From positions 1 through 23,355 of IMG/VR virus record IMGVR_UViG_3300043395_003655: DNA of 23,355 nt, one strand, 5' to 3'. Source of the DNA: a virus. Each line of letters starts with the position of its first letter. Positions within the stretch are counted from its first letter, which is position 1. Shown one piece after another: positions 399 through 12,714 of the stretch. The position numbers and the translations under genes were made by a program. Under the pieces are notes generated by a model, which made no database searches, was not told the origin of the DNA, and saw only the letters and a program-made list of their open reading frames with translations.

Positions 399-1763
399 TT
401 ACGCCATCCATCCCAGGCTCTCGCCTATGCTTTGAAATGCACCCTTTAATCCACTATGTTTTTTCAGGGCGCTCGAAATTTTACGGCTTTTTCTATCACC
501 GCCACGATCACTTGACGCAATTGCCATATAACGGAAAGCATCGGCGGCATGAGACGACCAATCGTGCACAGGTTCATTTGAGAGAATTTCTTTATCCGGG
601 TCTTCAGCGTAGTGGTAGTGACGAAGTGAATGCAGAAGCCCCTTTTCACACCGTGACGCGTCGAACCAGCAAGTCGGGAAAATCCCTCTCGCCGCAATAA
701 TTCCGTCAACCTTACTTAATCTCGGGACAATCCGCACTCGAAAACCCGCTTCTCGCATTTGTTCTTCGATTGACTTTTTCGATCCAAGCGTTTTTGCGCG
801 AGCATCATGAGGAAGCCAGCAATCACCATATTCATACAATTCACCATTTGAGCCATAGCGTGACCGCAGCACATGAATGTAGTGATCGAGACCTTTTAAG
901 CGGTTTTGGTAAAAGTCAATCACTCGCCGTTGCATTCCGACATATTGCTCAAAGATGATCGCGGTGCTATCAGAACGCCCAAGATCGAAATACAAATTCA
1001 CACTCGAACTTGCATGGTGCGGAACATGCGTAATTCGTCCTTCTTCAGCGCAATCACGAAGTTCATCCGCATAAACCGCGCCTTCAAGGCTTTTTCGACA
1101 TTCACCTTCCCAAACATGCAAATAAGCGTCACGGTCACGGGCTTTAAGGTCCAGCATTTCCTGCTTCAAAACCGTCGGAAACCACGGATTGTCACGCCAA
1201 GAAATCTTCTGCACAATCGCATTTTTCGGCGGATGAAGCACAAATCTTACATAAGTATCATCGCTTTCAAGTTCTGGGTTGAAAGATGCCCAGATTTCTG
1301 ACCCTTCTTTTCTGATCGTCGGGATTAAAACGTCCCAAGAATTTTTTGTGACCTTATTAGCTTCTTCAACCCAGCAAATGTCCACACCTTCATAAGACTT
1401 AATTTTGGTGACATTGTTCCGAATGCCTTCAAAAGAAAATTCAGAGCCAGTCGAAGGACAATAAATTCTTGCCTGTTCGATTTGATAAAAACCTTGTAAG
1501 CCAAGAAGCTCAATTTGATCGCTCAGCACACGATGCACCGAGTCTCGAATTGAATTTTGCAACTCACGAGCACAAAGAATACGAAGGGGGCGTTTTGCTG
1601 CTAAAATAACGAGCGCTCTTGCAATTCCCCACGATTTTGCCCCGCCTCTCCCTCCATACAAAACTCTATACCGCACAGGCAAACCATTAACCTGTGGCCA
1701 GAAAAGACATTGAAGCTTTTCTGGCCACTCAATAACTTTTGCGTTTTGTGTTGTTAGGTCCAC
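399..1763 (-). CDS. terL: Terminase large subunit (PBSX/Terminase_3-like ATPase-nuclease)
   Basis: This 454-aa protein is the DNA-packaging motor. Seen: a Walker A-type loop YGGRGGAKS (about 36-44), a Walker B strand VDICWVEEA (127-135) with acidic pair E133/E134, a coupling-motif-like SFNPE (160-164), and a C-terminal RNase H-fold nuclease with candidate metal ligands D260 (YFDLGRSDSTA), D320 (LPHD) and D408 (SHAADAFRY). The length fits the family. The start is GTG at 1763 in MDLTTQNAKV; no good Shine-Dalgarno precedes it, and the GTG lies inside the 33-bp box at 1757-1789, so initiation may be controlled there. It is followed without a gap by portal. The small terminase candidate lies 9 kb upstream in the same strand, an unusual separation. 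Confidence 0.93.
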   Translation of the reverse strand: MDLTTQNAKVIEWPEKLQCLFWPQVNGLPVRYRVLYGGRGGAKSWGIARALVILAAKRPLRILCARELQNSIRDSVHRVLSDQIELLGLQGFYQIEQARIYCPSTGSEFSFEGIRNNVTKIKSYEGVDICWVEEANKVTKNSWDVLIPTIRKEGSEIWASFNPELESDDTYVRFVLHPPKNAIVQKISWRDNPWFPTVLKQEMLDLKARDRDAYLHVWEGECRKSLEGAVYADELRDCAEEGRITHVPHHASSSVNLYFDLGRSDSTAIIFEQYVGMQRRVIDFYQNRLKGLDHYIHVLRSRYGSNGELYEYGDCWLPHDARAKTLGSKKSIEEQMREAGFRVRIVPRLSKVDGIIAARGIFPTCWFDASRCEKGLLHSLRHYHYAEDPDKEILSNEPVHDWSSHAADAFRYMAIASSDRGGDRKSRKISSALKKHSGLKGAFQSIGESLGWMA

Positions 1764-1789
1764 TTGTTATTGACTTTCTAATGGGTCTA
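1757..1789 (-). repeat. 33-bp intergenic box, copy A (upstream edge of terL)
   Basis: Read on the minus strand this segment begins TAGACCCATTAGAAAGTCAA and ends AAGTGGACC, followed by TAAC. It matches the copy at 12596-12628 at 28 of 33 positions. It starts at the TAG stop of the 57-aa gene and contains the GTG start of terL. It is likely a regulatory site on DNA or on the terL leader RNA; its function is not known. Confidence 0.7.
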
Positions 1790-1960
1790 TTTTTTCTTCA
1801 TCATCTTTTTATTATACGAGGCAAGACCCTTTTTGTCCATCGCCATATCTTTCGCGGACCCCTCTTTTACGCCCTTTGCCTTCATTTTCTTATCCTTAGC
1901 TTTGTCCATCGGGCTGCGTTCCCATTCGGCCATCGTCATCTTCTTTCCACACTTAGCCAT
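1787..1960 (-). CDS. Small lysine-rich protein, 57 aa
   Basis: An ATG at 1960 preceded by AAGGAG at good spacing opens a 57-aa frame ending in TAG. The ATG overlaps the TAA stop of the upstream membrane gene (TAATG), so translation is probably coupled. The peptide starts MAKCGKKMTMAEWERSPMDK, is very rich in Lys and Met and ends in KKMMKKK. I do not recognise a function. It resembles the short basic proteins that phages often carry between structural genes (compare 7759-7920, 9993-10148 and 10150-10416), which may bind DNA or be packaged; that is inference. Its 3' half seems to hold a promoter for terL. Confidence 0.75.
   Translation of the reverse strand: MAKCGKKMTMAEWERSPMDKAKDKKMKAKGVKEGSAKDMAMDKKGLASYNKKMMKKK
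1811..1839 (-). promoter_or_regulatory. Candidate promoter inside the 57-aa gene, reading into terL
   Basis: On the minus strand TGGACA (1834-1839) and TATAAT (1811-1816) are separated by exactly 17 nt, predicting a start near 1804, about 40 nt before the terL GTG. The -10 is perfect and the -35 matches 5 of 6. It lies in coding sequence, so chance is possible. If real it would give terL and portal their own transcript. Confidence 0.4.
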
Positions 1961-2190
1961 TACTTATCTCCTTTTCTGTCTAACAATTTGAACCCGATCT
2001 GCAATGACAGATAAATGCAGCCGAGAATTGGGGCTAAAAGTGCAGCAATATCTGAATATGGTTTTATCATCGTCATCCACCAAGGAGAAGAAATCATTGC
2101 GGCAGAAACAATTCCTCCAATTTTTTCACTTGTTGTGGAAAAAATATCATTCCAGTTCATAAAATGTTCAGGCGGAGTTCTCAGCGGCAT
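1960..2190 (-). CDS. Small membrane protein, holin candidate, 76 aa
   Basis: The chosen start is ATG at 2190 (MPLRTPPEHF), which has GAGGGA seven bases upstream and lies clear of the previous gene; an in-frame ATG at 2223 would overlap the end of the tail gene and lacks a clear ribosome site. Two hydrophobic segments are visible: roughly KIGGIVSAAMISSPWW (24-39) and IAALLAPILGCIYLSLQIGF (about 50-69), followed by a charged tail KLLDRKGDK. Size, two membrane spans and charged end fit class II holins, which open the inner membrane for endolysin. It sits among tail and packaging genes instead of beside the endolysin, so a structural or superinfection role is possible. Confidence 0.5.
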   Translation of the reverse strand: MPLRTPPEHFMNWNDIFSTTSEKIGGIVSAAMISSPWWMTMIKPYSDIAALLAPILGCIYLSLQIGFKLLDRKGDK

Positions 2191-2210
2191 TTCACTTTCC
2201 CTCATTTTAG

Positions 2211-3521
2211 TTAGAAAACCCATTTACGCAATCGACTTACCGTCGATGCTCCTTTTTTTGTAAAAATCCATCCAAGATTATTTCCGGCATTTATATTGCC
2301 GTTTATAAAATATGATTGCCATCTTGCCCCTCCAGATGCAATAGAGTCTTTTATGCTACAAAAAGCCACGTTTACGACACCAGTTAAATCGGACAAAGTA
2401 AATTGCGTGCCCGCAACAGAACTTTGCAAAGTCAACAATTTTCCAGCAGTTCCCGCAGCCGTAAAAGAAGACACTGCTTGAGTTGTGCCTGCTGTAAATG
2501 TAATAGTAGTAGAACCAGTTGACCTATATGTATTTGTAATATCCCGAAAAGCATTAGACCCGCTAATTATCAGCTCTCCAGAGCCGCCTTGATTAAGAAT
2601 AGGCCATGACGCCCCGCCGCCAGCAAATGTTTTAGTGCTGGAGCTTGTCATGCTTATTACGCCATTACCTGTGACGGTAAGATTTGTTATAGTTGCGCAA
2701 TTCCAAGCAGTTCCAGACCCAGAAACTGTCCAAGTGCCCGATCCAATTGCCAATGTTCGACTGACACTGCCACTACTGGATAAGGTAGAAATTGATACAT
2801 TATTGCCGTTCGCGTTAAATACCCCCGCGTCAATGGTCAAGCCATACGTTGGGTTTATGGTCAGCGAATCACCAAGAACCCATGTGCCAGAATTGTCTTG
2901 CAACACGGGATTATTGATCGTTTTTCCGTTTGTGATAAGTGTGCTAGTTGACCCGGAAGTAACGTTTCTTAATGTTAAATTAAAATTTCCAGCAGTTAAA
3001 GTCATGCCGGTTGAAAAAGTTAAGTTTCCATTAATAAATTTTGTTCCGGCAGCTAAAGTTCCAGAAAAACCTGTAAAATCTAAAGCACGAACGCGAGCAG
3101 AACTCATTCCAATAACGTCAGAACCGCCTAAAACATTAAATGAAATTGTATTTTCGGCCGCAACGCTGGTGGCTGCAATTGTTCGTGTTCCAGTGCTGCT
3201 TGTAGATGTTAAATCAATAACTGGCGTTCCAGACACGCTGCATGAGGTCGTTTGCGTAAAAACCGTTGTCGAGTTTCCAGCAATCTGAATTTTATTAGAG
3301 CCAAAAGCTAGTGTTCCTGTATATCCTGATAAATTAAGAGTCAAACAAGGAGCGACAATTTCAAGAGTGCAGGTTCCACCGCCTGACGATGAATTAAAAA
3401 AAACAGCATCGGCCGCTGTAGGAACGCTCTCGCCTCCAGCGCCGCCGCTGCTTGCAGCCCAATTTGTAGTATTTGAAGCGTCCCATGCCCCAGAACCACC
3501 AACCCAATATCTATCAGCCAT
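2211..3521 (-). CDS. Beta-rich tail / receptor-binding-like protein, 436 aa
   Basis: The start MADRYWVGGSGAWDASNTTN has AAGGA eight bases upstream, overlapping the stop of the tailspike gene. The N-terminal YWVGGSGxWDxSNTTNWxxSSGG motif is one I associate with phage tail and surface proteins. The rest is a long run of Ser/Thr/Gly/Asn-rich strands (LTLNLSGYTGTLAFGSNKI, ISMTSSSTKTFAGGG), spaced like a right-handed beta-solenoid, with almost no charged residues. It has no visible catalytic motif. It ends in a basic stretch STVSRLRKWVF. Following the tailspike directly, it is probably a second fibre or tail appendage. Its codons are rich in A/T at third positions compared with the packaging genes, which fits exchange of host-range modules. 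Confidence 0.65.
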   Translation of the reverse strand: MADRYWVGGSGAWDASNTTNWAASSGGAGGESVPTAADAVFFNSSSGGGTCTLEIVAPCLTLNLSGYTGTLAFGSNKIQIAGNSTTVFTQTTSCSVSGTPVIDLTSTSSTGTRTIAATSVAAENTISFNVLGGSDVIGMSSARVRALDFTGFSGTLAAGTKFINGNLTFSTGMTLTAGNFNLTLRNVTSGSTSTLITNGKTINNPVLQDNSGTWVLGDSLTINPTYGLTIDAGVFNANGNNVSISTLSSSGSVSRTLAIGSGTWTVSGSGTAWNCATITNLTVTGNGVISMTSSSTKTFAGGGASWPILNQGGSGELIISGSNAFRDITNTYRSTGSTTITFTAGTTQAVSSFTAAGTAGKLLTLQSSVAGTQFTLSDLTGVVNVAFCSIKDSIASGGARWQSYFINGNINAGNNLGWIFTKKGASTVSRLRKWVF

Positions 3522-3532
3522 ATTGGTGATCC

Positions 3533-5602
3533 TTACTGATTAGAGCCTATAGCTTGGAAATACAGCTCTCGGGAGAATCCGGTTTTGTTTTCCAGTAACC
3601 ACGAGCTAGAACCTGCATCCCAATACACGTTTAATTTTGCTGCGGTTCCTTGTGTCGCGCTATATGTCCCATCGTTATAAATAAACGTAATGGTCTTTGT
3701 TGTGGCCAAAAAAGCAATGATGGCTACTTTGCTTCGACTATCATTTATAATTCCAACAACGGAAGCTCCGGCGGCCAGAGGCAAAGTTATTACTGTTGGA
3801 TCAGGAGCGTCTACAGTAATAACACCTTGGTTAATAGGCACTCCAATTATATAATCGCGCCTGTATGCTGATGTCGATGCGCTGTAAAGCGCCGTGCTAT
3901 ATAAAATGCCCGCAGTAACAGCACCACGAACGCCATTGATTAAAGTAAAATCAACAATAGACGCAGTAGAGCCTGTTTGCCAAAAACAATTGTTTATCTG
4001 TAGGCGTTCGTTGCCTGTGATTTTCTCTATATCCAAAGCTTTTCGAGAGTTTGAAAGCCAAACGCAACTATCAAGCGTTATGTCGCGGAAGCGTCTAAAA
4101 TAATATCCTTGGCCTATTTCTCCCATATAAATGTTTTTGAAGCTTATATTCGTGACTTCAGATACGCTTCCTTGGTCAAAATAAAAACCATATCCAGTGT
4201 CCTCAAGACCTTCTGTTCCTTCCCATCTAACATTTTCTATATTCAATGCGTAAGATGCACCGTCTGCGGCTAAAGTAGAATTGTCATAATACATTCCATA
4301 TTTACCATTGAGCCACGCTTGGTAGCCCGTAAACGACACGTTGGAGAAATTTGCCCCAGGCTCAAAAAAGAAATTAGCTCTCGTGTAGTCCGGGGGAGTT
4401 GTGTAAAAACCAGCACACGATGTCAGAATATTATTAAAGTTGCACTGGTCCAAAGAAAGCGATGGAAAATTTGTATTCCTAGCAATTGAGAAAGGCGTGT
4501 CTGCGGCTAAATACAAGTTGCCGAACGACATGGAGTCTCGGCCGCGAGTTCTGATGCCTATAGAATTGTTGCCGCTCCATTGGCTGCTCGCACCAACCGC
4601 GATGCTGTCAACCTCCAGCAGAGTGCAGTCCTTAAACTCAATGGCGGTTTTTTTGTGAGTTTGATCGTTTGTAAAAAAATTCATTCCTTTTATGGAATTT
4701 TGAACCATGATGCCGTCGTCTGTCGATCCTTCTCCGCCCTTGCCAAAGAAAAAGCAGATGTCATCGGCAGTAGGATTAAATAAAATTTGTGTAGCCCAGA
4801 CACCCGCGCCATATAAATGCAATCTATTTTGCACTATAGATATTGTGCTGGTTATTTTATATATTCCGGGAGGGAAAAATATTGCGCCATTCCCAGAAGT
4901 AAAAACATTAATAGCCGCTTGTATTCTAGCAGTAGAGTCTGCTACGCCGGACCTATCCGCCCCAAACCACAATACATTGATTGGCGTATCATAAATACGC
5001 AACCATGCCGATGAACCATTTCCTCCTGTCGGAAGAATAATCGTTCCGCCGTTATCGACATACGTGCCCGGAGCCGCACCAGTTACGCCATAAAATTGTC
5101 CCCCACCGCCATCGCCAACCGCATAATACCCAGCAACATCTATAGTTTGTAGCGCCACTGGCTGCAACGCTTTCAGCGCAGGCGTAACAGTCTGCGCAGA
5201 TAATTGCGTCGGCAAAGAATACGAAAACATCCACTGTTTTAAGTCAACTGCAAAAATATAAAGAGTTTGATAAGCAGGTAAAACAGTGCCAACATTTCCA
5301 GGCACGCCACCAATTGTTGAGCCTCCAGCGGCATACACAATAACAGGATTTGCCGTTGAATTACTTACAACTAAAACTTTTCCCGGTAACGCTTGTGGAA
5401 TAGTTATTCCAGCATTTGGCGCAGCAGACGTAATATTTGTAATCGCGTCAATAACCACAACCGACGTATTAACATTTCCCCCAGCCGTCGCAGTGACAGA
5501 AGTAGTCGTAGACCATTGCGGATTTCCGAGCTTTTTATTCAGCTCAGTTCCGTCAATCAGCCTATAGCCATCTATAAACGATTGGGGGGTCGTAGTTTCC
5601 AT
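3533..5602 (-). CDS. Tailspike with pectate-lyase-like beta-helix, 689 aa
   Basis: Three parts are visible. Residues 1 to about 125 form an anchor-like domain (DGYRLIDGTELNKKLGNPQW ... ALPGKVLVVSN ... QWMFSY) that resembles the N-terminus of the fibre at 7923-8798. Around 208-255 is the classic entry to a Pectate_lyase_3 beta-helix (NVLWFGADRSGVADSTARIQ, AAIN, GAIFFPPGIYKI), followed by about 300 residues of beta-helix repeats. The C-terminal 120 residues (VITLPLAAGASVVGIINDS onward) form a separate beta-rich unit. Such spikes bind and often cleave surface polysaccharide; the substrate cannot be read here. Two ATGs (5605, 5602) compete; the second has better spacing from AAGG, the first overlaps the previous stop (TAATG). 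Confidence 0.85.
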   Translation of the reverse strand: METTTPQSFIDGYRLIDGTELNKKLGNPQWSTTTSVTATAGGNVNTSVVVIDAITNITSAAPNAGITIPQALPGKVLVVSNSTANPVIVYAAGGSTIGGVPGNVGTVLPAYQTLYIFAVDLKQWMFSYSLPTQLSAQTVTPALKALQPVALQTIDVAGYYAVGDGGGGQFYGVTGAAPGTYVDNGGTIILPTGGNGSSAWLRIYDTPINVLWFGADRSGVADSTARIQAAINVFTSGNGAIFFPPGIYKITSTISIVQNRLHLYGAGVWATQILFNPTADDICFFFGKGGEGSTDDGIMVQNSIKGMNFFTNDQTHKKTAIEFKDCTLLEVDSIAVGASSQWSGNNSIGIRTRGRDSMSFGNLYLAADTPFSIARNTNFPSLSLDQCNFNNILTSCAGFYTTPPDYTRANFFFEPGANFSNVSFTGYQAWLNGKYGMYYDNSTLAADGASYALNIENVRWEGTEGLEDTGYGFYFDQGSVSEVTNISFKNIYMGEIGQGYYFRRFRDITLDSCVWLSNSRKALDIEKITGNERLQINNCFWQTGSTASIVDFTLINGVRGAVTAGILYSTALYSASTSAYRRDYIIGVPINQGVITVDAPDPTVITLPLAAGASVVGIINDSRSKVAIIAFLATTKTITFIYNDGTYSATQGTAAKLNVYWDAGSSSWLLENKTGFSRELYFQAIGSNQ

Positions 5603-5604
5603 CA

Positions 5605-6204
5605 TTAACCTTGCAATATGCCGAGAGTGACGCTCATATCCGAAGTAGAAGCAAGCGCCGCCGTCGCCGCACTCGGAACAACTACAGCATATAAATTTGA
5701 TGAAGTTCCAAGAAGTGCTTTCGCAATTCCATCCAGATTATAAATCGTATGCGTGCCCAACACGCTACTTGCTAATGTCAATTGGTAAATGCCAAGAAGA
5801 ATTGCAGAGTCCGCCGCAGCAATCGCCGCAACATTTCCATTTGTAAAAGTGCCCGCAGGACTCGCAGAGAAAATCGCAACATTAATTGCCGCAGTCTGCA
5901 CGGACCCTTTAAACTTAACCGCAATACTTTCCAAAATTCCACCGTATTGCGCATTCGCAGACAAAATAAGCGGAAAAGTCATAATTCCGCCCATCACCAC
6001 ATTCGAATTATACACACCTGCCGTGACAGTCGGTGTCACACTGACTTCATAAACTCCTTGGGGAAGGGCGTTAATGGCAATTGAGCCAATCGGCGCTCCA
6101 CCTCCAGAAGCCGAAGCCATGGCAAACGCATATGTTCCGTCTCCCAAATTAACTAATTTGATCGGAACGCCTGTTTGATACCCGAAAAAATCTGCGTCTG
6201 CCAT
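5605..6204 (-). CDS. Virion-like protein of unknown role, 199 aa
   Basis: The start MADADFFGYQTGVPIKLVNL has AGGAGA seven bases upstream. The protein is rich in Ala, Gly, Val and Thr with predicted beta strands (VYEVSVTPTVTAGVYNSNVV, GGIMTFPLIL, GGILESIAVKFKGSVQTAAI) and no charged patches or membrane segment. The GGxLxFxx...GGxLxSVxVxxKxxxxT pattern is common in phage virion proteins upstream of tail fibres. It is the first gene after a terminator and its stop overlaps the tailspike start, so it heads the tailspike-tail-holin group. A structural or connector role is inferred; no enzymatic motif is seen. Confidence 0.6.
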   Translation of the reverse strand: MADADFFGYQTGVPIKLVNLGDGTYAFAMASASGGGAPIGSIAINALPQGVYEVSVTPTVTAGVYNSNVVMGGIMTFPLILSANAQYGGILESIAVKFKGSVQTAAINVAIFSASPAGTFTNGNVAAIAAADSAILLGIYQLTLASSVLGTHTIYNLDGIAKALLGTSSNLYAVVVPSAATAALASTSDMSVTLGILQG

Positions 6205-6217
6205 TTGAAAATCTCCT

Positions 6218-6243
6218 AAAAGAAGAGGGGCTTTTGCCCCTCT
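6218..6243 (-). terminator. Rho-independent terminator after the signal-peptide protein
   Basis: An 8-bp perfect stem (AGAGGGGC / GCCCCTCT, 4-nt loop) is followed on the minus strand by TCTTTT. It lies between the stop at 6249 and the start at 6204. It should end transcripts of the 208-aa gene, at least partly, though no strong promoter is visible for the genes after it. Confidence 0.75.
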
Positions 6244-6248
6244 GGAAA

Positions 6249-6875
6249 TTAATTATAAGCCCAAGCATAAGTCGTCGCGCCGCCCGTATTCGTGCAAAAC
6301 ACAACACGAGTGACTGCGCCCGTTCCGCTGACCGCCGAGCCGTAAGTGCCCGTCGCATACGCCGTGCCATTGCTGACCAAAGCAACCGAACCAAACGTCG
6401 TTGCATCACACGTAGGCAGGAGCGCAATCGTCGAAGTCGGCAGCTTCATGTAACTTGTGACAGTCGGAGCCGTCAGCACATACGCTTTAAGCTGCTGCAT
6501 CTGGATCATTTCGGTCTGCGGGTTTACACCGCCACCGCCCGAAGTCATCGCAGTTGAAGCAACTGTCTGTGAATTATTGACGGTCCAAGTGCCGCCAGCT
6601 CCCGACAAAATCACCGTGCCCGGTGCGATGTTCGCACCACGCAAATTCTGGCCAGCGTAGATTGAACCAGTGATGGCCGTCGCCGTCAAAGTCGTCCCGG
6701 AAATCGAGCCGGTGAATGACGCCATGGTGGCAACATCGCCCGTGTCGGCGGGGACATACTCAAAACCGGAAAGAGGGGCAGCCGCAAGCGGATAACCCGG
6801 AAACTGTCCGGCAGCAAAAGCAGCATTCGAAGCCATTACAGCCAAAATGCCGCCAAGAAAACCAATCTTTTTCAT
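6249..6875 (-). CDS. Tail-like protein carrying a Sec signal peptide, 208 aa
   Basis: The start MKKIGFLGGILAVMAS has AGAGGCGAG upstream. The first 22 residues are a textbook Sec signal peptide: MKK, a hydrophobic core and an AFA/A cleavage site (SNAAFA then AGQFPGYP). The mature part holds FTGSISGTTLTATAITGS...GQNLRGANIAPGTVILSGAG...TWTVNNSQTV, a beta-rich unit I know from phage tail and virion proteins, then a polar C-terminal half with Cys in TCDA and FCTNTG, which could form a disulphide after export. It stands alone: a 112-nt gap upstream and a terminator downstream. An exported phage structural-type protein is unusual; it may coat the host surface or block adsorption, but this is inference. 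Confidence 0.7.
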   Translation of the reverse strand: MKKIGFLGGILAVMASNAAFAAGQFPGYPLAAAPLSGFEYVPADTGDVATMASFTGSISGTTLTATAITGSIYAGQNLRGANIAPGTVILSGAGGTWTVNNSQTVASTAMTSGGGGVNPQTEMIQMQQLKAYVLTAPTVTSYMKLPTSTIALLPTCDATTFGSVALVSNGTAYATGTYGSAVSGTGAVTRVVFCTNTGGATTYAWAYN

Positions 6876-6925
6876 ATTTCTCGCCTCTTAGCCTATGGCC
6901 GCGACACAGGCACGGCTCAATTTAC

Positions 6926-6954
6926 ATGGTGGAGCTTAGGCGAAAGAAAGTCAA
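6926..6954 (-). promoter_or_regulatory. Weak candidate promoter for the signal-peptide protein
   Basis: On the minus strand TTGACT (6949-6954) is followed after 17 nt by CACCAT (6926-6931), only 3 of 6 matches to a -10 box. The gene behind it has its own terminator, so a nearby promoter is expected. The remaining bases of the 6876-6987 gap show nothing else clear. Confidence 0.25.
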
Positions 6955-6987
6955 CGCGATTTATTCAAAAATATGACTAAAATGGCT

Positions 6988-7092
6988 TTAACCTAACAAA
7001 AATTTTAACGTATTATGAAGTAAAACTACAATAATTCCTGCGCACACAATTTGAAGCACAGAATAAACGAAAAATTCCCAATCCGGCGGCAT
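6988..7092 (-). CDS. 34-aa single-span membrane miniprotein
   Basis: The ATG at 7092 overlaps the TAA stop of the nuclease gene (TAATG), which is strong support for a real, coupled gene despite its size. The peptide is MPPDWEFFVYSVLQIVCAGI followed by IVVLLHNTLKFLLG: a short acidic/aromatic N-terminus and one long hydrophobic segment covering about residues 8-26. I do not recognise it. Given its coupling, it may work with or restrain the nuclease at the membrane, or simply be a lysis accessory; both are inference. Confidence 0.6.
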   Translation of the reverse strand: MPPDWEFFVYSVLQIVCAGIIVVLLHNTLKFLLG

Positions 7093-7562
7093 TATATCGG
7101 GTTTCTTTCAAGCCAATGCAAGATTGGAATGATTTTTTGCGTTTCTGCCCTCATAATCGCCCCTTTCAACGTGGTTTCGACGAGTGAAAGGTCTGGAGTT
7201 TTGCTTAAATGTCTTGCCGCTACAATTCCAAGCGGCTTTTTATCTGGCCAAACTGTCTGTGCGATTGGAAAATACAACTCTTGAAGCTGGGCAATGCCTT
7301 GTTCAACATTCGTCAACTTGCATTCAATAATCACAATTCTTTTTTGCCCCTCTATAAAGAGGTCCATTTGACAATGTCCCGGCCCGTTCAAGTCCTTAAA
7401 CTCAAACCATTGGCCGTGTTCTGCACGTGGAATGGCCGCAGCAAGAGCTTTTTCGTATCGTAGTCCCGCAGCCTTCGCCCCTCTCGGCCTTGCTTTCGAA
7501 ATATGTGCTGGTCGCAAACACATCGCAGCGTATTCCAATCCAACTACGCTGCGAAAAGTCAT
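7092..7562 (-). CDS. PD-(D/E)XK-like nuclease, 156 aa
   Basis: The protein shows the core of the PD-(D/E)XK nuclease fold: a helix with E37 (GLRYEKALAAAI), strand FEFKDLNGPGHCQMDLFI with D67, then RIVIIECKLT with E80-x-K82, and a following helix VEQGIAQLQELYFPI. These would be the metal-binding and catalytic residues. Start: ATG at 7562 (MTFRSVVGLEY) is preceded by AAGGGCG at suitable spacing and does not overlap the previous stop; a longer frame from 7592 would overlap it by 29 nt. Known members act in recombination, packaging end-trimming, restriction or host DNA breakdown; which applies here is not visible. It is an odd resident between tail genes, and it is coupled to the 34-aa membrane protein. 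Confidence 0.65.
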   Translation of the reverse strand: MTFRSVVGLEYAAMCLRPAHISKARPRGAKAAGLRYEKALAAAIPRAEHGQWFEFKDLNGPGHCQMDLFIEGQKRIVIIECKLTNVEQGIAQLQELYFPIAQTVWPDKKPLGIVAARHLSKTPDLSLVETTLKGAIMRAETQKIIPILHWLERNPI

Positions 7563-7563
7563 A

Positions 7564-7755
7564 TCAAGCGCCCTTTTTCCCTTTCGGATCAATCCAAACT
7601 AACACTTTTTCCATTTTAATTTCAACCATTAAACAAGAATCTGGATAGATTTTTGGGTCAAAAGTCAAAAATCCATGGGCGCGAAGCGGGAACGGCCCGT
7701 CCTCTACAGGCACCAATTTGAACCATTCCCCTTCCGGCTCTAATCTAAATCGCAT
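7564..7755 (-). CDS. Hypothetical protein, 63 aa
   Basis: ATG at 7755 lies 3 nt after the stop of the upstream gene, whose last codons (GAAGAAGTGAG) supply the ribosome site. The product (MRFRLEPEGEWFKLVPVEDG) looks like a small all-beta protein with Pro-Asp-Lys turns (FDPKIYPDS, WIDPKGKKGA) and no Cys pair, signal or membrane span. It is not recognised. The tight spacing to the basic protein before it and the nuclease after it supports a real gene in the same transcript. Confidence 0.6.
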   Translation of the reverse strand: MRFRLEPEGEWFKLVPVEDGPFPLRAHGFLTFDPKIYPDSCLMVEIKMEKVLVWIDPKGKKGA

Positions 7756-7758
7756 GGC

Positions 7759-7920
7759 TCACTTCTTCTTGACTTTTGCAGGGAGCTTTTTCATCGCGCC
7801 CTTTCCTTTCACCTCATACTCTCGCCCGACGCTTTGTGGAATACCCAAACGCTTTGCCGCTTTCGGGTCATGCGCAACCATCGCCATCATTTTCGCCTGT
7901 GCTTTACTTTTTGCGGGCAT
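7759..7920 (-). CDS. Small basic protein, MPAKSKAQ family, 53 aa
   Basis: AGGAG lies seven bases before the second of two tandem ATGs (7923 and 7920), giving MPAKSKAQAKMMAMVAHDPK. The first ATG overlaps the stop of the fibre gene (TGATG). The start MPAKSKAQ..M...A is typical of a family of short phage and bacterial proteins (DUF3008-like in my memory), followed by AAKRLGIPQSVGREY and a lysine-rich end (KKLPAKVKKK). The function of the family is unknown to me. Net charge suggests nucleic-acid binding or packaging in the virion, which is inference. Confidence 0.7.
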   Translation of the reverse strand: MPAKSKAQAKMMAMVAHDPKAAKRLGIPQSVGREYEVKGKGAMKKLPAKVKKK

Positions 7921-7922
7921 CA

Positions 7923-8798
7923 TCAAACTCCTGTCATCGTTACAATTATCGAAGGAATCGCAGGTCTTGCTGGACTTACACCCGGAACATCCGCCTGCGC
8001 TGCTCTCGCAAACAATCGCATGGTAACATCTGCCGACCACCATGCTAATTCCAGATAATCACCCGCAGCTAACATTAACACAAAATTCCACGCCGCGACA
8101 ACTTTCGCGTTATTGTTATTCGCATCACTCGACGTATTTGTCCAATCCAACGCCTGCCCGTTTTTCTTCAGCCAGATTTCAAAAGTATCCTGTCCGGAGT
8201 CCGTTTTGTCGAACTGCGCGGAAAACTGTAAGTTGTAGACCCCTGATCTCGTGACAGTAATTTTTGACCCACCAACAATACTAATGCCCAATGACGAGTC
8301 TACCGTGTTAAACGTCATGATTTGTTCATTCGCAGCCGTCGCAGGAGGTGATGAAGGCTGGATCGTCGTATCATACGCGGAAATATAATCACTTGCAGCA
8401 GATGAAGCGATTGGTAAAAATGAATAAGTCCATTTCCTAAGTTCCTGTGCGACGAACAAACATGCAGATGTTCCTCGCTGCAAAATCCCAACGTCCCCAG
8501 ACACTCCATCAATCATTGAGTTTCCATCAGCAAACACCCGCATATCTGTGGCAGAATTATTATAAACCAGCATGATCTTGCCGGGGAGCGCAACAGGCAA
8601 TGTCACGCCCGCACCAATTGCCCCGACTGTCGCAACATTCGCCACACTTTCCACAATTTTTGTGCTTGTCAGGCGGGTCCCGCCTACCGTCGCCTCAAGA
8701 GGCTTAGTCGTGCCCCAGACCGGAGCGCCGAACAATTCGTCAAGTGTCTGCCCGTCGAAAAGCCTTTTACCAAAATCGAGTGCTTGTGGGAAAGTCAT
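7923..8798 (-). CDS. Tail fibre with shared anchor domain and C1q/TNF-like C-terminus, 291 aa
   Basis: Start ATG at 8798 has AAAGG seven bases upstream and overlaps the o-spanin stop (ATGA). Residues 1 to about 120 (RLFDGQTLDELFGAPVWGTT ... GVTLPVALPGKIMLVYNNSA ... GVSGDVGILQ ... LRKWTYSF) match the tailspike N-terminus segment by segment. The remainder from about 130 (ISAYDTTIQ ... ITVTRSGVYNLQFSAQFDKT ... FEIWLKKNGQALDWT ... AAGDYLELAWW) has the strand pattern of a C1q/TNF-like jelly roll, a trimeric fold found at fibre tips. I infer a short receptor-binding fibre that docks at the same virion site as the tailspike or an equivalent one. Confidence 0.7.
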   Translation of the reverse strand: MTFPQALDFGKRLFDGQTLDELFGAPVWGTTKPLEATVGGTRLTSTKIVESVANVATVGAIGAGVTLPVALPGKIMLVYNNSATDMRVFADGNSMIDGVSGDVGILQRGTSACLFVAQELRKWTYSFLPIASSAASDYISAYDTTIQPSSPPATAANEQIMTFNTVDSSLGISIVGGSKITVTRSGVYNLQFSAQFDKTDSGQDTFEIWLKKNGQALDWTNTSSDANNNNAKVVAAWNFVLMLAAGDYLELAWWSADVTMRLFARAAQADVPGVSPARPAIPSIIVTMTGV

Positions 8799-9085
8799 TT
8801 TGTGGCCTTTTTCGCCGGAAGCCATTTGCATTTCAGCGCGACGCCTACGGCGTTATGTTCTCGAATTTGCGCGATTGTCGGGGCTGTGTCGTGGCGGGAA
8901 TAGTAAATGGCGCGAGCAGCAGTGCAAAAATCCGCGCCCTTCGGCACGTCAATCTCTGAGGAACGGGTCGTCTGACACGCCGCCAGTGCGAGGCTCACGC
9001 ACACGACCAGCATCAAGCGCCCGTTGTTCTTCTCGCGCCGCAAGGGCAATTCGGTTCGCGTCAGCGTTGGCTTGTAAAATGTCAT
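8795..9085 (-). CDS. o-spanin (Rz1-like outer-membrane lipoprotein), 96 aa
   Basis: A lipobox is clear: hydrophobic LMLVVCVSLA followed by LAAC with lipidated Cys37. The mature 60 residues end with a pattern seen in Rz1-like proteins of many phages: FCTAARAIYYSRHDTAPT and IAQIREHNAVGVALKCKW. The gene starts inside the i-spanin gene in another frame (137-nt overlap), the classical nested Rz/Rz1 arrangement. Start ATG at 9085 with AGGCGGA just upstream gives a 24-residue basic n-region (RREKNNGR); an ATG at 9013 would remove all positive charge before the signal and is less likely. Role: with the i-spanin it fuses inner and outer membranes in the last step of lysis. Confidence 0.82.
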   Translation of the reverse strand: MTFYKPTLTRTELPLRREKNNGRLMLVVCVSLALAACQTTRSSEIDVPKGADFCTAARAIYYSRHDTAPTIAQIREHNAVGVALKCKWLPAKKATK

Positions 9086-9197
9086 TTTCCGCCTCCGCCT
9101 GCCCAGCCTTTTTCAGCCGTGCCCCTTCCGACCATTCAAAAAACTTACTCACGGCACCGAAAAGCGCCGTGAGTGCTGATAGAATGGAGTGAATCAC
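8949..9197 (-). CDS. i-spanin-like inner-membrane subunit, 82 aa
   Basis: GTG start at 9197 overlaps the stop of the preceding gene (GTGA) and has AGG six bases upstream. Visible parts: a hydrophobic N-terminus (MIHSILSALTALFGAVSKFF, a probable anchor), then a helical coiled-coil stretch rich in Ala, Glu and Arg (AEAENDILQANADANRIALA, AREEQRALDAG), and a polar tail ending SDDPFLRD, an ending I have seen in Rz-like proteins of other proteobacterial phages. Position between the membrane genes and the nested lipoprotein gene supports the call. At 82 aa it is shorter than lambda Rz, but short versions exist. Confidence 0.7.
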   Translation of the reverse strand: MIHSILSALTALFGAVSKFFEWSEGARLKKAGQAEAENDILQANADANRIALAAREEQRALDAGRVREPRTGGVSDDPFLRD

Positions 9198-9376
9198 TTC
9201 ACGCCTGCAACATTAGCGTCTTTCGCCGCCATGCCCGCAAAACCTGCCATGAGTGTGGGGATGTCGTTGAAATCCACAGCCCCTGCAGACGCCCATTTCG
9301 CAAGCACACCCATAACCGCCGCCAGTCCCAGAATTGTCGTTTTCCAAGAAACCAGCATATTCGTAATCACGTTCAT
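9194..9376 (-). CDS. Small membrane protein of the lysis cassette, 60 aa (holin candidate)
   Basis: ATG at 9376 is preceded by GGAGGAAGAA, a very strong ribosome site that overlaps the TAG of the 28-aa gene. The product begins MNVITNMLVSWKTTILGLAA: one clear membrane span (about 11-29, TTILGLAAVMGVLAKWASA) and a second weaker one (FNDIPTLMAGFAGMAA), then AKDANVAGVK. The SWKTT...GLAA...AKDxNV pattern is common in small phage membrane proteins near endolysins, often labelled holin. Its place between endolysin and spanins favours that; the protein at 1960-2190 is a rival. Confidence 0.6.
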   Translation of the reverse strand: MNVITNMLVSWKTTILGLAAVMGVLAKWASAGAVDFNDIPTLMAGFAGMAAKDANVAGVK

Positions 9377-9385
9377 TTCTTCCTC

Positions 9386-9472
9386 CTACTTAGTCAGCAC
9401 AAGCGCCATACCAAACAACATCAAGATTGCCGCTACCGCAAACGCAACAAACAATATTGTTTCTTTTATCAT
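9386..9472 (-). CDS. 28-aa single-span membrane miniprotein of the lysis cassette
   Basis: ATG at 9472 overlaps the endolysin TGA (ATGA) and the frame ends with TAG at 9386, whose bases form part of the next gene's ribosome site. The peptide MIKETILFVAFAVAAILMLF then GMALVLTK is a short charged N-terminus and one hydrophobic helix covering nearly the entire protein. Coupling on both sides supports expression. It could be a holin partner, a pinholin-like peptide or an antiholin; no homologue is recognised. Confidence 0.55.
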   Translation of the reverse strand: MIKETILFVAFAVAAILMLFGMALVLTK

Positions 9473-9996
9473 GGTTTTTCTCGTGCCTGTCGAAATGCGT
9501 CTTGGAAAGACCGAGCATACCCGGCAACCAGTTTCGCGCGGTCAGTTTTATTAATAATACGACGAGCATTTACAAAATCGACCCGCCCCGGACGGATATA
9601 ATCCGAAAGTTTTTTACCAGTGAAAATTCCGGTAACCATTCCTTCAAAAGCCGCCCGCAACGCAATCGGCCAAGTCATTAAGTCGCCGGGCTTTTTCGCC
9701 CCAAACTTCCGCGCGTTTTCTTCCCAAGTGACTTGAACGATTCCTTCCCCTACCCACGGATAATACTTTTTTGTCCGCAGATACCGTTCCCCGCCCATTT
9801 CTCTGATCGGCTGCATTTTATGCGCAGTTTCATGCACAACAGTCGCAAGCAAATACGCCAATTCATCGTCCGACATTTTCGGCCAATTGCTTTCTCGGTA
9901 ATCAAGGATTTTTGTAATCCCTTCAACCTGCGACTGCGTAAATCGCCCGCCAAACACACTTTGCCGAACGCGATTGAAAAAATATTCTCTATTCAT
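9469..9996 (-). CDS. Endolysin, GH19 chitinase-like glycoside hydrolase, 175 aa
   Basis: The protein cuts the peptidoglycan glycan backbone at lysis. Family marks seen: the N-terminal FFNRVRQSVFGGRFTQSQVE helix pair, LATVVHETAHKMQPIREMGG with the likely catalytic acid E56, a second conserved block YPWVGEGIVQVTWEENARKF (compare GRGYIQLTW in better known members), and the C-terminal DFVNARRIINKTDRAKLVAG region. It has no signal peptide, so it needs a holin for release; two small membrane genes follow. The start ATG at 9996 overlaps the stop of the 51-aa gene (ATGA). Length is normal for a single-domain phage enzyme. Confidence 0.85.
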   Translation of the reverse strand: MNREYFFNRVRQSVFGGRFTQSQVEGITKILDYRESNWPKMSDDELAYLLATVVHETAHKMQPIREMGGERYLRTKKYYPWVGEGIVQVTWEENARKFGAKKPGDLMTWPIALRAAFEGMVTGIFTGKKLSDYIRPGRVDFVNARRIINKTDRAKLVAGYARSFQDAFRQAREKP

Positions 9997-10148
9997 TTTT
10001 TCCTCGCCGCTCGCATGTTATCCACAAGATTAGGATAAGGGCGGCCCGCTTTTTTCGCCGCCCGTTTCGCATTTACTTTTTGCGCAGTCGATAGCTTTTT
10101 CGGTTTCGGCAAATCAGCGGGACGCGATTTTTCCCAAATTTCTTTCAT
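9993..10148 (-). CDS. Small basic protein, 51 aa
   Basis: The ATG at 10148 lies one base after the upstream stop and the TGA overlaps the endolysin start. The peptide begins MKEIWEKSRPADLPKPKKLS and continues TAQKVNAKRAAKKAGRPYPN then LVDNMRAARKK. The ending AKKAGRPYPNLVDNMRAAR is a pattern I have met in short phage proteins of unknown function. About one third of residues are Lys or Arg. Gapless spacing to both neighbours supports it. Confidence 0.75.
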   Translation of the reverse strand: MKEIWEKSRPADLPKPKKLSTAQKVNAKRAAKKAGRPYPNLVDNMRAARKK

Positions 10149-10149
10149 C

Positions 10150-10416
10150 TCAGCATTTCCACGCACGAAGCGAAAGGGCTTTGCGAGTTGGCTTGCCTTT
10201 TTCGTCTTTCATCGGCCCCGGCATTCCACCCATACGAGCGCAAAAACTTTTCCGTCTCGCCGCATCTTTTTCGTTTTTCGGGTTCGGCGCAGGCGGTTTT
10301 AGCCCCGGTTTGCCTTCGGCCTTCGCTTTCGCGTTGTAAGACGCACGACCTTTCGCGTTTAGCCCGCCCTTCGGGTCTTGTCCCTCTTTTCGAGTCCATG
10401 CTGGAGTTTTAGGCAT
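10150..10416 (-). CDS. DUF6321-like small basic protein, 88 aa
   Basis: The start is ATG at 10416 (MPKTPAWTRK), 8 nt inside the end of terS, with AAGG upstream. The sequence matches the DUF6321-type pattern known from many tailed phages: WTRKEGQDPKGGLNAKGRAS, LKPPAPNPKNEKDAARRKSF, then CARMGGMPGPMKDEKGKPTR and KALSLRAWKC at the end. Function is not established; small size, positive charge and place beside terminase and virion genes suggest a DNA-associated or virion component. Both Cys residues (59 and 88) are in conserved-looking positions. Confidence 0.85.
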   Translation of the reverse strand: MPKTPAWTRKEGQDPKGGLNAKGRASYNAKAKAEGKPGLKPPAPNPKNEKDAARRKSFCARMGGMPGPMKDEKGKPTRKALSLRAWKC

Positions 10417-11269
10417 TTGGATTAAACCTTTTTGCCAGGTATTCCGCCCGAAGCGTGTCCCGTTCCAGAGCTTCCGCTTCGCGTTGCGCGCTCGCTGCTT
10501 CGGCTGCTTTAATTTTTGCTTGCGCGATGTCAGCGTGAGAAGGCTTTGGTGTAGGAGTGTGGGGCACGAACGGTTCCCCGTCAACATCTAATCCGGGAGG
10601 CATTCCCAATTTGTCCGCAAGAATGGGCCTAGCCTCCAGCGGGCGCACTTCCCCATAACCATCAAGGGGGGCCGTAGACAAGGCCGGTGCCACGGGTGCA
10701 AGCGTTGCTTCTAATGTCTGCGGCGCGTCATGCACGGGCGACACAAAATTAATTTGCAGCGCAAGCCCATTCCCTCCCCCACTAACAATCGTCTGTTGCG
10801 GAGCAGGCCCGCCTTTCGCTGTCGGTATCGATCGATCCGCCATACTCGTAAAAAGGTCCAGCAATTCCCGCTTCGTAAACTTATCCGGCTCCCGTTCAAA
10901 CCGTTCCTGCAATTCCTCCAGCACACTCGTCCCAAACGCCGCCATCCGAGCGTGAACATCAACATAAACTTGATGAAGTTCTTCCGCGTAAAACGCAACA
11001 AGTTCCTGAAAAGCCGGGTCGTTTTTCAAATCCGAAATCACCGATTGCCGGTAACCTGTAAGCTGCGAACACTCCAAAAGTGTTTTCCCCGACGCAACCG
11101 CCTTTGCAAGCATATGATGATTATATCGAAGCGCTTTAATCCGGTGCCCCCCTTTCCGCCCATCCCCCGGCGTCCACATATTCGCAATATCCAGCTCCGT
11201 GAGCCGCCGTGGTTCTCCGTAAAAAACCGGGGCAGGGCGGCGTCCGCGTCCGGGCGGCGTAACATACAT
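10409..11269 (-). CDS. Probable terminase small subunit, 286 aa
   Basis: Residues 45-95 (ALRYNHHMLAKAVASGKTLL, ECSQLTGYRQSVISDLKNDP, AFQELVAFYAEEL) form a helix-turn-helix followed by a coil, the usual build of small terminases, which recognise the packaging site. Next comes a helical segment to about 155 (YVDVHARMAAFGTSVLEELQ, ERFEREPDKFTKRELLDLFT), then a proline/alanine-rich linker and a long C-terminal helix (ADIAQAKIKAAEAASAQREA). At 286 aa it is longer than most family members, and terL is 9 kb away. The start ATG at 11269 has GGAG seven bases upstream, and that GGAG lies in a hairpin. Another DNA-binding role cannot be excluded. Confidence 0.6.
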   Translation of the reverse strand: MYVTPPGRGRRPAPVFYGEPRRLTELDIANMWTPGDGRKGGHRIKALRYNHHMLAKAVASGKTLLECSQLTGYRQSVISDLKNDPAFQELVAFYAEELHQVYVDVHARMAAFGTSVLEELQERFEREPDKFTKRELLDLFTSMADRSIPTAKGGPAPQQTIVSGGGNGLALQINFVSPVHDAPQTLEATLAPVAPALSTAPLDGYGEVRPLEARPILADKLGMPPGLDVDGEPFVPHTPTPKPSHADIAQAKIKAAEAASAQREAEALERDTLRAEYLAKRFNPNA

Positions 11270-11274
11270 TTGAG

Positions 11275-11315
11275 TGCTCCAAGCGGGGTGGTAGGCGCGG
11301 TGCGCCTCTGGAGCA
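11275..11315 (-). promoter_or_regulatory. RNA hairpin enclosing the terS ribosome-binding site
   Basis: In the minus-strand transcript TGCTCCA (11309-11315) can pair with TGGAGCA (11275-11281), 7 bp, enclosing a second stem GGCGC/GCGCC with a 3-nt loop (11294-11306). The outer arm contains the terS Shine-Dalgarno GGAG (11277-11280). Folding would hide it, so terS translation is probably regulated. Confidence 0.55.
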
Positions 11316-11378
11316 TGATAGTGGATAGTGGGGTAAAAAGCAAGACTGGGAAATGACGCAAAAGGTTAGGGTAAAATA

Positions 11379-11424
11379 GGTCCATCACTTAATTTTTCAC
11401 TAGTATAAATGTGGTATGGGCTAA
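11379..11424 (-). promoter_or_regulatory. Variant of the 33-bp box upstream of terS
   Basis: On the minus strand the segment starts TTAGCCCAT and ends AAGTGATGGACC (then TATT), the same end motifs as the 33-bp boxes but with a 13-bp longer middle. A TATACT -10-like sequence (11402-11407) is inside but lacks a good -35. The stretch 11270-11509 has no gene; besides this and the hairpins I see nothing else. Confidence 0.4.
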
Positions 11425-11459
11425 GCATTACTCCAATCCCAATCTAGGCCAGTCCCCCC

Positions 11460-11474
11460 TCGACCTTCGGTCGA
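11460..11474. repeat. Short inverted repeat next to the terminator
   Basis: TCGACC and GGTCGA form a 6-bp stem with a 3-nt loop, 17 nt beyond the terminator stem. It lacks a following T-run on the minus strand (it is followed by GGGGGG there), so it may be a second stop-assisting or RNA-protecting hairpin. Confidence 0.4.
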
Positions 11475-11483
11475 TCTCGTTTG

Positions 11484-11508
11484 AAAGAAAGGAGCCCCGA
11501 AGGGCTCC
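11484..11508 (-). terminator. Rho-independent terminator with UUCG loop after the 35-aa gene
   Basis: On the minus strand GGAGCCC-TTCG-GGGCTCC, a 7-bp GC-rich stem closed by C(UUCG)G, is followed by TTTCTTT. It begins 2 nt after the stop of the 35-aa ORF. This is a near-ideal terminator and separates that ORF from terS. Confidence 0.85.
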
Positions 11509-11509
11509 C

Positions 11510-11617
11510 TTACCAGAGCAAGATAGCAAGCTTGATTAAATAACTTTCATCTGGTGCGATCATCATATCAGCGACTTGATGATAAATCCACGCCCAGACA
11601 TGTTCATCCTGTTGCAT
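11510..11617 (-). CDS. 35-aa protein, single-gene transcription unit
   Basis: ATG at 11617 with AAGGG upstream opens MQQDEHVWAWIYHQVADMMI followed by APDESYLIKLAILLW and a TAA. It has its own promoter (11661-11689) and its own terminator (11484-11508), so it is the only gene of its transcript. The peptide is acidic and aromatic in its first half and amphipathic-hydrophobic at the end; it is too short for a DNA-binding domain. I do not recognise it. Such isolated small genes facing the early operon often encode regulators or host-takeover peptides, or the transcript itself may act as a small RNA. Confidence 0.6.
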   Translation of the reverse strand: MQQDEHVWAWIYHQVADMMIAPDESYLIKLAILLW

Positions 11618-11660
11618 GATTTTCCCTTTTCAAAAAGCCCGGCCTTGCGCCCATGAAAGA

Positions 11661-11689
11661 ACCTTACAAGGTTAGGCCCACGATGTCAA
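11661..11689 (-). promoter_or_regulatory. Leftward promoter of the divergent pair
   Basis: On the minus strand TTGACA (11684-11689), a 17-nt spacer containing TGGGCCTAACC, and TAAGGT (11661-11666). Predicted start near 11654, 37 nt before the 35-aa ORF. The -10 lies in the palindrome AACCTT-AC-AAGGTT (11660-11673), a possible operator. Confidence 0.7.
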
Positions 11690-11712
11690 CTCAAAATTTT
11701 CTATTGACATCG
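11681..11712. repeat. Inverted repeat formed by the two -35 regions
   Basis: CGATGTCAA (11681-11689) and TTGACATCG (11704-11712) are perfect 9-bp inverted copies with a 14-bp A/T-rich spacer. Each arm holds the -35 box of one of the two back-to-back promoters, so one symmetric regulator could control both. Confidence 0.75.
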
Positions 11713-11732
11713 AGCCTCAACATGTTTAGGTT
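11704..11732 (+). promoter_or_regulatory. Rightward promoter of the divergent pair
   Basis: TTGACA (11704-11709), 17-nt spacer, TAGGTT (11727-11732); predicted start near 11739, giving a leader of about 64 nt for the 191-aa gene. The -10 is centred in a small inverted repeat GTTTA-GGT-TAAAC (11724-11736). Confidence 0.7.
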
Positions 11733-11740
11733 AAACCCAC

Positions 11741-11765
11741 AACGCAAAATTGCGTTGCGCTTTTT
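11741..11765 (+). terminator. Leader hairpin, possible attenuator
   Basis: AACGCA and TGCGTT (11741-11756, 4-nt loop) form a stem followed by GCGC and five T at 11761-11765. It is at the very start of the predicted rightward transcript, so it could attenuate it or shield its 5' end. The stem is weak. Confidence 0.3.
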
Positions 11766-11802
11766 GAAAATCAAATCCGTCCATCACAACAGGAGCCATA
11801 CA

Positions 11803-12378
11803 ATGGTTAATGTCACACTAACTTATGGTGATCGTTCGGTTGAATTTTCCGACCTACCGGAAAACTCACAAGAACATCTTGTACGCCTTGGCTTTTCAAC
11901 CGCGATCAAAAATTCCATCGCGGGCGTCAAAGCCGGAATTCTTGGTAACGGCGCTAATCCTTGGAGCGATGCCGATATTGAGGAAGAGGCGCGGGCCGCC
12001 GGGTTAACGGTTTGGGGCCGTGACGAAGCAACGGCGCTTGCAATTTGCGCCGCTTTGCAAACGCGCATGTTCGACTCGATCGTATCCGGCGAAACCAAAG
12101 CGCCTCGCACAAGAACACCGAAGCTTTCGGATGATGACAAATTGCGGCGCGACATCGCAATCTCGCTTTTGCGTGCCGCGGCGGCGAAACAGGGCAAGGA
12201 ACTTCCCGCCGGTTGGCAAACTAACGCCAAGAAAGAAGATAAATCTTCGTTCGACGCATGGCTTTCCGACATGATCGCGAAATCCGACAAGCTTCGCGCC
12301 ACCGTCGAAAAGGAATTTACGAAGCGCAAGAAAGAGATGGAGAAGGCAGGCGAGGGGCTGGACGATATTTTCGCCTGA
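11803..12378 (+). CDS. Early protein of unknown function, 191 aa
   Basis: The start is ATG at 11803 (MVNVTLTYGDRSVEFSDLPE) with AGGAG seven bases upstream; the frame stays open further left but that part contains the promoter. The protein has an N-terminal beta-like part, a region around PENSQEHLVRLGFSTAIKNS with a helical continuation (IAGVKAGILGNGANPWSDAD), a lysine-rich middle and a helical C-terminus (FDAWLSDMIAKSDKLRATVE, EFTKRKKEMEKAGEGLDDIF). No Cys, signal or membrane span. It is the first rightward gene, has its own promoter and terminator, and ends in an acidic LDDIFA tail. An abundant early DNA-binding or host-takeover protein would fit, but this is inference. Confidence 0.75.
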   Translation: MVNVTLTYGDRSVEFSDLPENSQEHLVRLGFSTAIKNSIAGVKAGILGNGANPWSDADIEEEARAAGLTVWGRDEATALAICAALQTRMFDSIVSGETKAPRTRTPKLSDDDKLRRDIAISLLRAAAAKQGKELPAGWQTNAKKEDKSSFDAWLSDMIAKSDKLRATVEKEFTKRKKEMEKAGEGLDDIFA

Positions 12379-12394
12379 AAACAATGACTTGCAA

Positions 12395-12427
12395 CCCGCC
12401 GGGAGAAATTCCGGCGGGATTTTTGTT
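12395..12427 (+). terminator. Rho-independent terminator after the 191-aa gene
   Basis: CCCGCCGG (12395-12402) and CCGGCGGG (12411-12418) form an 8-bp GC stem with an 8-nt loop, followed by ATTTTTGTT. It starts 16 nt after the stop. Confidence 0.88.
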
Positions 12428-12500
12428 GCGTGAGGGCAAACATTATCGGGCGATTGTGTCGGGTTATAACGCGGGGATATATTTTTTTCGACCATATAGG

Positions 12501-12533
12501 GGTCCATACCCTGGTCACTGACTAATGGGCTTA
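12501..12533 (-). repeat. 33-bp intergenic box, copy B
   Basis: On the minus strand it starts TAAGCCCATTAGTCAGTGAC and ends GGTATGGACC. It matches copy C at 22 of 33 positions and points in the opposite direction, so B and C form a large inverted repeat around the central hairpin. Confidence 0.6.
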
Positions 12534-12552
12534 ACCTTTTCGTGAGACTTTC

Positions 12553-12594
12553 TCTCTTTCTCTCTCTATATATATTTTGAGAGAGAGAAAGAGA
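12553..12594. repeat. Homopyrimidine/homopurine hairpin with A/T loop
   Basis: TCTCTTTCTCTCTC (12553-12566) pairs perfectly with GAGAGAGAAAGAGA (12581-12594), 14 bp, with a TATATATATTTT-containing loop. The left arm is also a mirror repeat (12551-12565 reads the same backwards), the sequence type that can form triple-stranded H-DNA. Confidence 0.75.
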
Positions 12595-12595
12595 A

Positions 12596-12628
12596 TAGAC
12601 CCACTAGACAGTCAATGACAGATGGACC
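12596..12628 (+). repeat. 33-bp intergenic box, copy C
   Basis: It begins TAGACCCACTAGACAGTCAA and ends CAGATGGACC, followed by TACC. It is 28/33 identical to copy A at terL, 10.8 kb away on the other strand, and starts 1 nt after the hairpin. Confidence 0.7.
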
Positions 12629-12714
12629 TACCCTCAGACACACCAATGACCCCATACCCACCCAACAGGTCAAAAAAAATGTATCCCCGCGACATGACCC
12701 TCCGCAATGACCCC

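Follow-up and report, generated by a model that had tools for sequence, protein, structure and literature searches.

The window analyzed here, a 23,355-nucleotide stretch of viral DNA, carries the gene for the large terminase subunit (terL), a putative gene for the small subunit (terS), a stand-alone gene (P3), and an early rightward operon. It also holds several copies of an inverted repeat, hereafter the box, along with single half-sites of that repeat on or near promoter-like sequences. Box scores in the list come from a held-out matrix, trained on other phages only, without the window.

399–1763, minus strand: terL, large terminase subunit (Pfam PF04466, 5e-41; PHROG 3717), with box A over its start
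1755–1789: box A, 35-bp dyad TAGGTCCA-N19-TGGGTCTA over the first terL codons; score 33.5
10409–11269, minus strand: putative small terminase subunit gene terS, named from position and conservation only
11377–11424: long variant E, upstream of terS; arms TAGGTCCA and TGGGCTAA, 32-bp spacer
11661–11689, minus strand: leftward sigma70-like promoter TTGACA-17-TAAGGT, half-site TTAGGCCCAC (11672–11681) in its spacer
11704–11740, plus strand: P3 promoter TTGACA-17-TAGGTT, half-site TTAAACCCAC (11731–11740) just past the −10
11803–12378, plus strand: P3 (191 aa), a stand-alone unit followed by an intrinsic terminator (12395–12418)
12499–12533: degenerate box C, 63 bp before box B; score 7.6
12596–12630: box B, TAGACCCA-N19-TGGACCTA, upstream of the early rightward operon; score 28.2
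12715–12754, plus strand: early promoter TTGACA-17-TATCAT, half-site (12745–12754, minus strand) around the start site
14542–14570, plus strand: promoter-like TTGACC-17-CATAAC, half-site TTAGGTCCAT in its spacer; equivalents in G004 and G015
18104–18141, plus strand: half-site TTAGACCCAT on the −35 of TTGACT-17-TATTGT (18113), upstream of the D gene
18533–18567: box D, TTAGCCCA-N19-TGGATCTA, at the 3' end of the gene at 18162–18536; score 22.5
22752–22761, plus strand: half-site TTAGACCCAT ahead of a nuclease-like gene; weak promoter match

A first-pass annotation of this DNA had described a 33-bp box shared by the terL start and the early control region. The similarity is genuine: minus-strand 1757–1789 and plus-strand 12596–12628 are identical at 28 of 33 positions, while the best 33-mer in 200 dinucleotide shuffles of the window reached at most 22. 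The true unit, however, spans 35 bp and forms an inverted repeat centered on a single base; in the window it reads TAGRYCCA, 19 bp, TGGRYCTA. A symmetric matrix built from whole records gives the general form TARRYCCAY-N5-AYTSART-N5-RTGGRYYTA, centered on a single S, in which each 8-bp arm is itself nearly palindromic as purine and pyrimidine. A further copy at 18533–18567 (box D) had been overlooked; it matches at 23/33 and scores 22.5 without any training on the window. The resemblance of minus-strand 12501–12533 to 12596–12628 amounts to 21/33, not the 22/33 first given, and this copy (box C) is not significant as a full box because its score of 7.6 lies below the shuffle maximum of 11.0, although it includes one strict half-site (12525–12534, minus strand). 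A long CT/GA-rich imperfect inverted repeat (CTTTCTCTCTTTCTCTCTCTATATATATTTTGAGAGAGAGAAAGAG) occupies 12541–12595, directly 5' of box B, and a similar GA-rich tract precedes the box at 14872 in the related phage G006.

At terL, the GTG start codon at 1763 (minus strand) lies within box A as originally described, and inspection by eye likewise found no Shine-Dalgarno sequence. The same box, with its 19-bp spacer and a start codon, is found at terL in 29 other loci; the aligned relatives use ATG at the same place. Usually the stop codon of the upstream gene falls in or beside one box arm, with the terL start codon bordering the other. Codon 2 is GAC in 30/30 sequences and codon 3 is YTA in 30/30, compared with 48% of Asp and 13% of Leu codons elsewhere in the gene, although these sequences are related and the counts are not independent. 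Judged from this codon choice, the constraint at the terL start is on nucleotides.

Relatives were collected as uncultured contigs through a terL search of IMG/VR (terL 77–91% identical), and the sources of these public contigs point to a freshwater phage group. Every relative with a terL at least 80% identical (80–91%) and a readable start retains the box at that start, the arms being exactly 19 bp apart, whereas the three relatives at 77% (L024, L025, and L028) have no box at the terL start and one ~570 bp upstream of terL. Close isolate relatives of these phages were not found, the best terL and helicase matches being below 60%. In total, the symmetric matrix recovered 61 distinct boxes, with no match above 18 in the reversed-sequence control; whole records totaling 603 kb gave reversed-control scores of 12.4 at most, whereas nearly all real sites scored 18–46. 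Four of the larger records hold six boxes each, mostly at orthologous junctions: G013 (55.6 kb), G014 (56.1 kb, with a 93-bp terminal repeat), G015 (54.2 kb), and G006 (52.3 kb), the last with an extra terS-side site of the long form. The six junctions are the region upstream of terS, on its promoter; the space between P3 and the early gene E1 or beside P3; the end of the D gene; the space between Xup and X; the convergent junction between the primase/helicase gene and the last structural gene; and the terL start. Gene calls around the boxes are mechanical open reading frames named by similarity to G006 or G005, while terS and several others take their names from position and conservation. Boxes A, B, and D of the window occupy three of these orthologous junctions, and variant E represents the long form at terS. 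Comparable sites to box B exist in G004, G006, G010, and G014, and box D has counterparts at the orthologous position in G005 (43709) and G006 (11238). Variant E, whose existence upstream of terS had been noted, is kept at the same place and at the same 48-bp length in four relatives (G006, G008, G014, and G017); terS itself, which matched no family, has orthologs in G004, G006, G008, and G010. At the convergent junction, in six records, the box ends coincide with the stop codons of both genes, such that the gap consists entirely of box.

A strict version of the pattern occurs in 50 stretches among 2.9 million viral contigs (IMG/VR), all from this clade, with terL accounting for 24, the convergent junction for 13, gene X for 12, and another place for 1. 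It was absent from the closely examined box-less relatives, save for a single one-mismatch match in G029, and the strict 39-bp box form had no occurrence in 84,980 bacterial and archaeal species genomes, a search confined to this strict form. The consensus is the same in phages of 47–57% GC. In three box phages, arm words rank with the 8-mers most enriched in intergenic DNA, which they do not in five box-less relatives; a search for other boxes in those five relatives returned none, and for that search the reversed-sequence control was uninformative, as reversal preserves palindromes. The matrix search proposed by the first-pass annotation, applied to the window and to related phages, thus recovered conserved copies at gene junctions, and not the scatter of copies inside coding regions that would have spoken against a functional element.

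The half-site pattern TTARRYCCAY is found 9 times in the window and 12 times in G006, and not once in either reversed sequence. Across nine records, the 48 half-sites outside boxes coincide with better sigma70-like promoters than do random intergenic places (median 7.3 vs 5.5, p = 1e-7), a moderate enrichment among orthologous sites that are not independent and fragments of differing completeness. Typical examples, in which the half-site falls in the promoter spacer, are TTGACTTAGACCCACCGATATGCTATTAT (G014 and G005) and TTGACATGATGGGCCTAACCTGTCATTAT (G014). The leftward promoter at 11661–11689, which diverges from the P3 promoter, has equivalents in G010, G013, G014, and G015, and the P3 promoter has equivalents at G014 45968 and G017 38552. 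Among full boxes, the one at terS coincides in five phages with a promoter-like TTGCNN-17-TATACT, whose spacer takes in one arm and whose −10 falls at the center of the box. Outside terS and the early region, most boxes lie on no promoter-like sequence, and no consistent promoter was found at the convergent-junction, gene X, D-gene, or terL boxes.

Taken together, the form and placement of these sites suggest that a single gene-control protein, acting across the whole phage genome, very probably binds the box. The first-pass annotation had proposed one regulator, and this is well supported by the orthologous sites, the conserved promoter half-sites, and dyad arms that vary independently; its further idea of a link between packaging genes and the early switch is too narrow because the same box stands at some six junctions, among them the convergent replication/late junction and one in the replication operon. 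We consider it likely that the box acts as a double operator of a single regulator, with half-sites blocking promoters and full boxes either controlling the terS promoter or stopping polymerase at junctions. The double operator would consist of two inverted half-sites (TTARRYCCAY) around a small central dyad (AYTSART), and one sequence-specific regulator, in all likelihood encoded by the phage, would recognize it as double-stranded DNA; it is the form of the site that points to protein binding. The same regulator would block initiation from single half-sites in the −35/−10 region of early sigma70-type promoters, a repressive role suggested by their place in promoters. Full boxes at about six fixed junctions would split the genome into modules (P3; early 1; early 2; replication; structural; and tail, lysis, and terS). 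At terS the regulator would control the promoter lying on the box, while at the terL start, gene X, the D-gene end, and the convergent junction it would stop RNA polymerase from passing into the next module. Such roadblock action is suggested by boxes sitting at promoter-less junctions, above all the convergent one, and for most boxes outside terS and the early region it is a guess.

Three proteins are candidate binders: a ribbon-helix-helix (RHH)-like protein, a ParB–methyltransferase fusion, and P3, the only one of the three contained in the window, which is a fragment. The P3 unit (11704–12418) lies between the late and early operons and carries a half-site on its own promoter. P3 belongs to no known family, its structural model had no structural match, and tblastn-confirmed scans of IMG/VR and INPHARED found no relatives outside this phage clade. 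The RHH-like protein (73–76 aa) has an RHH-like sequence pattern and helix layout, and matched nothing in Pfam, PHROGs, a PDB sequence search, or Foldseek (as a monomer). It is encoded in the replication operon (L229:2187–2417 in G014, and orthologs), occurs in all box records that include this place, and is missing from most box-less relatives; an RHH dimer would fit arms nearly palindromic in purine/pyrimidine. G030, which has no box of this consensus, encodes a distant homolog within the same gene order. The fusion of ParB_N-HTH with an N6/N4 methyltransferase (PF02195, 1.7e-11) is likewise found in every box record covering its region, in the replication operon and without ParA (L229:5759–7192 in G014; L084:12892–14325 in G005). 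In G016, the gene beside the gene-X box (L235:14243–14962, 239 aa) has an HTH_3 domain and a second HTH_3 protein lies nearby; the other members are without it, and no HTH_3 match is common to the box phages. A more elaborate scheme, which we regard as quite unlikely, would have six insulated modules governed by a complex of the RHH protein on the arms and the ParB-type methyltransferase as a clamp on the center, silencing early promoters through half-sites and blocking polymerase in both directions at each boundary, so that a lytic phage orders its genes by opening and closing boundaries.

Several other functions could place a conserved dyad at gene junctions. As an RNA element, also suggested in the first-pass annotation, the dyad would form an mRNA hairpin controlling translation, processing, or termination, and its position at stop/start junctions would be apt; in two relatives one strand of the boxes folds well as RNA, with a z of −4.15 for the box at G005 27876 (plus strand). 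Nonetheless, the arms vary independently at variable positions, with no excess of matched bases: for example, equal half-site bases were observed at 0.38 vs 0.43 expected for independent arms at position 4, 0.40 vs 0.48 at position 5, and 0.49 vs 0.53 at position 9. This argues for a DNA dyad rather than an RNA stem. The three boxes of the window, moreover, fold no better than shuffles, there is no Rfam match and no U-run, and at terL the sense strand has A·C mismatches where the antisense has G·U, making an RNA role decidedly improbable. An intrinsic bidirectional terminator is not indicated either: in the sequences inspected, the boxes are not consistently followed by a run of T, and the stems in those of the window are weak. 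Reading the box as a T7-type promoter of a phage RNA polymerase draws on its center (GACTCAGTATAG), which we take to resemble the promoters of single-subunit RNA polymerases. Yet the dyad is symmetric, its center varies in G009 and G010, a convergent box would fire into two gene ends, and PF00940 had no match in seven records (the control set being equally silent), so that this reading is hardly credible. Module-boundary recombination sites, that is, short shared sequences at module ends promoting module exchange, would fit boxes that separate functional modules. We find this very improbable: no tyrosine or serine recombinase family matched in the seven to eight records covered, sharp identity changes between G014, G005, and G006 fall inside the structural module, and the promoter half-sites would be left unexplained.

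Two further readings retain DNA binding and change the binder. In one, the box is a parS-like partition or clamp-loading site for the ParB_N-HTH–methyltransferase fusion, which would spread from boxes and silence or organize the genome as KorB does. The presence of the fusion in every box record covering its region and the small palindrome with a central S are consistent with this, as is RK2 KorB, which acts from dispersed operators (PMC11790492). On the other hand, related fusions exist in G027 and G030, both without this box, ParA (PF13614) was not found in seven records, promoter half-sites lack the center, and ParB–methyltransferase fusions are common in phages without a known site (PMC12704722). 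On balance, a parS-like site seems unlikely. In the other, the box is the operator of a host-encoded regulator exploited by the phages, and here it counts that no binder has been pinned to the phage. A looser host site is compatible with the genome search, yet the strict 39-bp form was found in 0/84,980 species genomes and one consensus spans phages of 47–57% GC, and we therefore consider a host regulator improbable. A phage-encoded regulator on a double operator remains the preferred reading.

Dispersed operator and stoperator networks are known from a few temperate phages. The C1 repressor of the plasmid prophage P1 has 17-bp sites, present as asymmetric singles over promoters and in some cases paired inverted as double operators. 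The box system likewise combines single sites over promoters with inverted double operators, although the sequences are unrelated. In mycobacteriophage L5 and cluster A, the site of one regulator is dispersed over the genome in promoters and short intergenic spaces (PMC9283540, PMC6550527), as the box is; those stoperators, however, are 13-bp, asymmetric, more than 20 per genome, and oriented with transcription, whereas the box is a 35-bp dyad in about six fixed copies accompanied by asymmetric half-sites. Searches of the box phages turned up no integrase and, by HTH_3 domain, no immunity repressor other than an unassigned HTH_3 gene in G016, and PF00589, PF00239, and PF13614 had no matches in seven to eight box-phage records, some incomplete, with positive controls. 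The proposed mechanism resembles that of L5, but with a full site that is not asymmetric and no integrase or parABS found, the box system is not classed as an L5-type member. The SPBRE of SP-beta is similarly a conserved element in many phage intergenic and promoter regions, and was recognized in silico long before its binder MrpR was found (PMC10516654). It is, however, a 15-bp motif of a recombinase-fold repressor, and eight box-phage records include no PF00589 protein. Finally, the KorB and KorA operators of RK2 are short palindromes scattered over the genome, at which a ParB-family silencer acts together with a small partner protein (PMC11790492). A ParB_N-HTH protein and a small RHH-like one are likewise encoded by box phages, but the operators differ from the box in sequence and length, ParA was not found in seven records, and the fusion is only a candidate binder.

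Here, such a network appears in an uncultured phage group whose searched records gave no integrase; its site is palindromic and keeps to some six junctions between modules. The set of boxes offers ready-made sites for fishing out the regulator, and makes testable the idea that a dyad-bound protein may insulate neighboring phage operons in both directions.
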